The translations under genes and the position numbers were made by a program. DNA of 64,000 nucleotides from positions 1 through 64,000 of the forward strand of contig CAISJV010000089.1 of NCBI GenBank assembly GCA_903885795.1, in the 5' to 3' direction. Below are positions 5,192 through 38,521 of this stretch, one piece after another. The notes beneath the pieces were generated by a model, which did no database searches, had not been told where the DNA came from, and saw only the letters and a list, made by a program, of their open reading frames with translations. Within the stretch, counting starts at the first letter, position 1. Every line of letters begins with the position of its first letter. This DNA comes from an uncultured delta proteobacterium. GTDB lineage: Bacteria > Desulfobacterota > Syntrophia > Syntrophales > UBA8958.

Positions 5192-5193
5192 TA

Positions 5194-5320
5194 ATTCCGG
5201 TTCAAAATCAAAACGCTATCTTCGTTGGCATCGGCAATCGGTTCCCTAACGGTGTGAAAAATACGCCTACGTCGCTTCTTCCTTACTGCCTTGATTTCAT
5301 CTTTGCTTTAGAACCGGAAT
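5194..5320. repeat. MITE-like element copy A, 127 bp with terminal inverted repeats
   Basis: The ends are inverted repeats: ATTCCGGTTC at the left and GAACCGGAAT at the right, with the match continuing imperfectly inward. The interior matches the reverse complement of 37941-38066 along nearly its full length, including CATCTTCGTTGG-like, AAAATACGCCT and GCCTTGATTTCATCTTTG blocks (about 80 percent by eye). It contains no gene. It lies between two convergent genes, exactly where a non-autonomous element or a bidirectional terminator would be tolerated. Confidence 0.8.
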
Positions 5321-5337
5321 AAAAATAATAATATCTA

Positions 5338-37874: not shown

Positions 37875-37940
37875 GATAATTGCAGAAGCACGGTTCGACT
37901 TCTTTTTCCGACAGACCCGAAGGACAGTGGTGAGCCACTT

Positions 37941-38066
37941 ATTCCAGTTCTAAATCAAAGATGAAATCAAGGCGGCAAGACAGAGGCGACGCAGGCGTAT
38001 TTTGCATACGTCGAGGAGCCGTTTGCCGATACCAACGAAGATGGCGCTTTGATTTAGAACTGGAAT
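37941..38066. repeat. MITE-like element copy B, 126 bp, inverted relative to copy A
   Basis: Ends ATTCCAGTTC and GAACTGGAAT are inverted repeats. The reverse complement aligns with 5194-5320 over its whole length (about 80 percent by eye). The last base overlaps the TAA stop (38066-38068) of the thioesterase gene. Like copy A it lies between convergent genes. Confidence 0.8.
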
Positions 38067-38521
38067 TATCTATGCTTTCTTGCCTCAAGGGCAGCAAGAT
38101 AAATGGGGCGATTTCCCCCAATATATTCCGGAGACAAAGTCATCCCGTGGGCGTAAGGGGTCCCGTTTTTATCGACGGTCACGAAGGTTACCATGCCCGT
38201 GACTGAGGGTGTGTCATCCTTCCCATTCACAAATACCTTGGCGTCAACGGTAATGCTTTTCTCCCCCAGGTGAGCAATCCGGGACTTGATCTCGATGATA
38301 TCGCCGGTTGTTGACGACTTGTGAAAATTCATCCCGTGAATGCGGGCGCAGACAATGTCCTCCGGCTTTCTCAACAGGTCGATAGTAGAAATAAGACAAG
38401 CCTCTACGAGCCACTCGGCCATCCTGCCCGCAAACAGGGTCCCATGATGGTTGAGATCTTCCGATTTGATGATCCGGGAAATCAGTATTTCCCGGATCTC
38501 ATTTTTTTCCTGAGTTGACAT
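38066..38521 (-). CDS. Acyl-CoA thioesterase, hotdog fold (YciA-like)
   Basis: A 151-residue hotdog-fold protein. It carries DLNHHGTLFAGRMAEWLVEAC near the N-terminus, where YciA/BACH enzymes have N-x-x-G-x-x-FGG with the catalytic Asp on the helix; here that helix position is a Glu. It then has a VCARIHGMNFHKSSTTGDIIEI strand. It would hydrolyse acyl-CoA esters; chain length is unknown. It lies in a run with the SDR and CoA-transferase genes. A 12-bp perfect palindrome sits inside codons 8-17 (see 38471-38498). The stop overlaps the element at 37941-38066. Confidence 0.8.
   Translation of the reverse strand: MSTQEKNEIREILISRIIKSEDLNHHGTLFAGRMAEWLVEACLISTIDLLRKPEDIVCARIHGMNFHKSSTTGDIIEIKSRIAHLGEKSITVDAKVFVNGKDDTPSVTGMVTFVTVDKNGTPYAHGMTLSPEYIGGNRPIYLAALEARKHR
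38471..38498 (-). promoter_or_regulatory. Strong hairpin inside the start of the thioesterase gene
   Basis: GATCCGGGAAAT (38471-38482) and ATTTCCCGGATC (38487-38498) are perfect 12-bp arms around a 4-nt loop. On the minus strand the hairpin covers codons 8-17 and could affect translation or be an operator. The function is unknown; it may be chance, since the arms encode real protein. Confidence 0.4.

Follow-up and report, generated by a model that had tools for sequence, protein, structure and literature searches.

Two copies of the element in the window

The window, that is, the whole 64-kb stretch of DNA analysed here, contains two copies of a short inverted-repeat element on opposite strands, both starting with TTCC and ending with GGAA. 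Each copy lies between convergent open reading frames, as the first-pass annotation had noted, with recognised genes on both sides: copy 1 between phosphoglucomutase and SLT/LysM genes, and copy 2 between HD-GAF and 4HBT thioesterase genes. Nucleotide comparison within the window revealed that copy 1 matches the reverse complement of copy 2 with an identity of 83.2% over 125 nt (E = 3e-32), in agreement with the annotated match of the interior, and the next best match is an 11-mer (E = 3). The ends mirror each other as described earlier, forming terminal inverted repeats of 19 nt with 89% complementarity in copy 1 and of 20 nt with 100% complementarity in copy 2. The folding of copy 2 is much stronger than that of shuffled sequence (z = -5.6 and -6.0).

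Direct 3-bp repeats flank both copies exactly, TAA/TAA for copy 1 and TTA/TTA for copy 2 (Table 1). The first-pass annotation had set the limits at 5194-5320 and 37941-38066; the element does lie there, but each reported end takes in one base of the target duplication. Its size, previously described as fixed, is nearly constant, with complete copies of ~119-128 bp and internally deleted ones of 109 and 113 bp.

Table 1. Coordinates of the two copies and their parts in the window
Feature	Position	Strand	Basis and remarks
Left 3-bp target duplication TAA, copy 1	5192..5194	+	Sequence and TNA rule; immediately follows, in frame, the TAG that ends the phosphoglucomutase gene upstream
Copy 1, 125-bp element TTCC...GGAA, somewhat decayed	5195..5319	+	Sequence searches, alignment
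Left terminal arm, copy 1	5195..5213	+	Arm pairing
Central hairpin core, copy 1, diverged form of CTCCTCGACGTA..TACGCCTGCGTCGCC	5242..5276	+	Alignment; position counted on sequence
Right terminal arm, copy 1	5301..5319	+	Arm pairing
Right 3-bp target duplication TAA, copy 1	5320..5322	+	Sequence
Distal target duplication, copy 2 (TTA on +, TAA on -)	37939..37941	-	Sequence
Copy 2, 124-bp element, perfectly matched arms	37942..38065	-	Sequence searches, arm pairing
Central hairpin core, copy 2, fits the cross-phylum scan pattern	37985..38018	-	Pattern scan, sequence
Target duplication, copy 2, doubling as the TAA stop that ends the thioesterase gene (38066-38521, - strand)	38066..38068	-	ORF calls, ortholog comparison, sequence

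Copy number, insertion and candidate movers

BLAST search of the whole genome (4.0 Mb, 95 contigs) revealed 33 near-complete copies and ~7 fragments at ~40 dispersed places, copy counts that rest on searches. The element is thus short (124-125 bp), non-coding and multicopy. Among seven genomes of the same genus, four carry many copies and three carry none, and the element also occurs in several other families of the order. The genome G036 has ~10 near-identical copies of 123 bp (TACCATTTCGC...GCGAAATGGTA; L137-L145), mostly 100% identical; this family, with other arms and the same core, is recently active. In G060 (L164 onward, VGTG01 records), ~124 copies of a 184-bp relative are flanked by CTAG. 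Searches of phage sequences gave no match to the element, and the plasmid matches come from a single Geobacterales plasmid, the mobilizable pGLOV01 of Trichlorobacter lovleyi SZ, where a copy of the element's own type sits directly after a stop codon (L303:2501-2623). It overlaps the annotated start of cobN, an annotation that may be too long. A fragment of the element elsewhere (L037; G000 C64, ~92461-92496) adjoins sequence that looks like a tRNA gene end. A literature search with strings of the element sequence returned unrelated primer-like matches only.

Analysis of the 82 copies with both ends readable showed that 36 have identical three bases on both sides, compared to a mean of 17.5 and a maximum of 30 in 20,000 shuffles. 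The duplications follow TNA, and where both sides are TNA, 36 of 49 agree. The near-identical recent copies of G036 have perfect TAA, TTA, TGA and TCA duplications, and copies of the G060 lineage are flanked by duplicated CTAG (once TTAA in a related record). At orthologous sites, alignment by eye revealed the corresponding bookkeeping: where G006 and G005 read ATG-TAA-CGAT, this genome reads ATG-TAA-element-TAA-TAAAATAA (L004), with flanks of equal length, and comparison of L025 with G007 showed an empty site with the same exact TAA arrangement. At the site of copy 2, the thioesterase stop TAA is kept and the element absent in G001, G005 and G006, and G007 retains a decayed left arm at exactly this TAA. 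The orthologous sites of sister species are thus empty or hold decayed remnants, which, together with the 3-bp duplication, shows that the copies arrived by insertion. Judged by copy number, duplications and orthologous sites, the earlier call of a miniature inverted-repeat element is right in substance. In the sister species G006 (L090, C114) and G005 (L096, C224), the stop codon that holds L027 in this genome is followed by another long hairpin, which has GGGGCTGTTCAAAAATGCTC...GAGCGTTTTTCAACAGCCCC as its ends and a comparable centre, GCGTAT..ATACGT.

Each copy is very probably a non-autonomous miniature inverted-repeat transposable element (MITE) of ~124 bp, for which we propose a mover acting in trans, recognition of the core, copying between the arms and retention at stop codons. 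A trans-acting recombinase, possibly no longer in this genome, would move the element by cutting TNA, or CTAG in another lineage, in a staggered manner. Three points count against this reading: no element with these ends was seen to carry a transposase gene (see below), approximately half of the copies have non-identical duplications, which must be put down to decay, and the covariation of the arms and the cross-phylum core are not expected of ordinary MITEs.

A narrower form of this explanation, in which the element is a MITE of an IS5-family (IS5/IS1031-group) insertion sequence, is conceivable but rather doubtful. The target rules are TNA for the IS1031 group and YTAR for the IS5 group, which the TNA duplications here and the CTAG and single TTAA of the G060 lineage resemble. 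However, a search of 60 genomes of the order detected DUF4096 (PF13340), typical of part of the family, in a single genome that is not the one studied here, and the four DDE_Tnp_1 loci present here lack ends matching the element. Neither an IS1031-type DUF4096 gene nor the DDE_Tnp_1 genes as a same-ended mover were therefore retained as candidates. The assembled draft sequence of this genome yielded no larger element in which these ends enclose a transposase gene, and neither did ~100 listed of the 248 ends in G060; the transposase encoded elsewhere that the first-pass annotation had invoked thus stays a proposal. Such absences are not proof, because draft assemblies can miss multicopy insertion sequences. 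Six contigs of G036 that share 81 bp after the repeat had suggested a larger autonomous element, which was dismissed as an assembly effect; the shared 81 bp are part of a PEP-synthase-like gene that is intact in G020. Unpaired ends in G060 were likewise not accepted as evidence of an autonomous element, since their partners are present with mutations. With more than 100 copies in one genome, the family provides ample natural material in which to look for the missing mover.

Matched arms, hairpin core and gene ends

Further analysis of the arms revealed that they vary between copies yet stay matched within each copy. In the most variable stretch, which comprises six pairs, the mismatch is 11% within copies versus 30% between copies. 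Two-sided changes occur in 13 of 19 arm pairs, against 4.2 expected from shuffles, and none of 500 shuffles was as high. Most arm changes at orthologous sites are one-sided, and some, compared by eye, are paired in place (L014/L111, L027/L136 and L032/L105). A tree of the core gives at least 27 changes of paired arm letters, a count of little weight given the short core and the poorly resolved tree. The arm mismatches comprise 41 A-C and 35 G-T. With A-C no rarer than G-T, the arms give no hint of RNA-type selection, and selection on them at the RNA level was discarded. Template switching is a known behaviour of quasi-palindromes, and the arms may stay matched through occasional copying of one arm from the other in this manner. 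Conversion from another copy would likewise give paired arm changes, and a structural need for the stem is an alternative.

The core was searched for in 84,980 species with the pattern CTCCTCGACGTA-N(3-14)-TACGCCTGCGTCGCC. Among the scan matches listed, it occurs in records labelled Deltaproteobacteria, Geobacter, Eisenbacteria, Acidobacteria, Actinomycetota, Bacillota/Peptococcaceae and Auribacterota, many of them metagenome bins, in which errors of label or binning may occur. Matched arms (net score 9 or more) surround the core in 53 of 60 readable cases among these listed matches, compared to 1.1% of shuffled controls; numerous distinct arm sequences occur among these cases, whose lengths, delimited by script, span ~95-184 bp. 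Since the pattern itself dictates the core, exact conservation of the core among the scan matches adds no separate support. However, a whole-element BLAST search within the order likewise brought up relatives that match only in the core and possess other self-complementary arms. In RNA folding, the strand lying antisense to the written core gave the more stable structure in 77 of 82 and in 53 of 53 elements; this better-folding strand is antisense to the upstream gene. On the bottom strand, GA/GA internal loops recur outside the core at regular places of the hairpin across lineages.

Overall, the element presents a conservation pattern reversed relative to ordinary MITEs. In the latter, the ends are fixed and read by the transposase and the inside is free, whereas here the core recurs across several phyla and the arms differ between lineages, free in sequence yet almost always complementary. 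Such a pattern points to recognition of a structure or an internal site, and we propose that members of the family would be recognised by their internal hairpin core and not by their terminal sequence. A broader idea, which we regard as speculative and rather unlikely, is that of a widespread superfamily of hairpin mobile elements, recognised via an internal strand-asymmetric core (possibly in a folded single strand) and not via the ends, with arms regenerated as matched pairs and a mover of unrecognised type; if true, lineages could change their termini completely.

The position of the element relative to genes is also distinctive. In 32 of the 82 copies (~40%), the stop codon of the upstream gene coincides with the left duplication, with only two cases of the mirror arrangement at the right end. 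When random insertion on TNA sites within the same intergenic regions was simulated, either orientation being counted, ~20 stop-codon matches were expected among the 64 testable copies, compared to 31 observed, a number reached in 2 of 20,000 simulations. The enrichment at stop codons is moderate and the orientation bias strong. Independently of our own ORF calls, the annotation of pGLOV01 places the last base of a DUF2149 gene immediately ahead of TTCC. For copy 1, where the duplicated TAA follows the TAG in frame, one mutation may have shifted the stop by one codon. In the G060 lineage, with its CTAG duplication, stop codons are struck in both orientations, and some copies sit at TAG stop codons common to convergent genes. 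Insertion at stop codons partly accounts for the placement between convergent genes.

Copies at stop codons probably persist because the gene keeps an intact end through the duplicated TAA or TGA, and landing there would be a harmless way to accumulate. Retention is favoured over targeting by the recent copies of G036, which have no long reading frame ending at the duplication (a small sample of 8 sites, with some contig ends uncertain). Preservation of the stop codon does not account for the orientation bias of 32 versus two, as insertion in either orientation would preserve it. The placement of the element at stop codons affects the annotation of gene ends in environmental genomes.

The downstream position and orientation bias, together with the strong folding and the paired changes, could also be read as a functional RNA hairpin, or a bidirectional terminator or 3' UTR stabiliser, kept by selection at gene ends. 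We consider this improbable, as the orthologous sites can be empty and copies decay, the arm mismatches lack a wobble bias and the better-folding strand is antisense to the upstream gene. Moreover, no intrinsic-terminator signature was found in the surroundings of copy 1, and no Rfam family (curated covariance model) matches the element. Of the two outcomes that the first-pass annotation had named as refuting its reading, a lack of further copies and a known non-coding RNA family, neither was observed.

Comparison with known systems

The MITE reading has to be compared with other families of dispersed repeats. Similar to REP and REPIN sequences, the element is a dispersed, extragenic hairpin with strand asymmetry, and a Y1 RAYT (REP-associated tyrosine transposase) reading a folded single strand might be thought to move it, all the more as Y1 genes occur in several relatives. 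Nevertheless, this possibility appears very remote: the element is much longer than REP/REPIN, and no Y1 transposase (PF01797) was found in this genome, which led us to reject it as the mover, nor in the copy-bearing genomes G023, G042 and the one-contig G044. In addition, the element has three-base target duplications, which are not known to be a RAYT/IS200-type trait. The REP-like family offered as an option by the first-pass annotation is accordingly not borne out.

Integron-type attC recombination sites scattered after single genes are the least credible of these explanations: a ~124-bp imperfect palindrome directly behind stop codons, with matched but variable arms and one strand folding better, resembles attC in its working only, since the ends, read directly from the aligned copies, are TNA-TTCC...GGAA-TNA and lack the attC boxes RYYYAAC/GTTRRRY, and the copies are single and dispersed with direct target duplications.

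ERIC, Correia (NEMIS) and RUP sequences are imperfect palindromes of ~100-130 bp in transcribed intergenic DNA that duplicate TA. The present element shares their size class (ERIC is ~127 bp) and palindromic form, but is set apart by description, as it duplicates TNA, often a stop codon, instead of TA. Multicopy intergenic families, some of them palindromic, have also been described in Geobacter metallireducens and G. bemidjiensis, including a "class 4" (PMC2700814, PMC2996986); given the shared multicopy and intergenic character, identity with our element is a lead only.

The closest likeness is to bacterial MITEs such as Chunjie of Geobacter uraniireducens, which measures 178-235 bp (reviewed in PMC10969869) and is set apart from our element by description. 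They share short, non-coding sequence, terminal inverted repeats, target duplication and tens of mostly intergenic copies. By contrast, the inside of our element is conserved across lineages, its ends vary yet remain complementary, and no parent insertion sequence was found. Many orphan MITEs have no known parent as well, those with terminal repeats common to an autonomous insertion sequence being the type I/II MITEs. Altogether, the element is MITE-like with a reversed conservation pattern.
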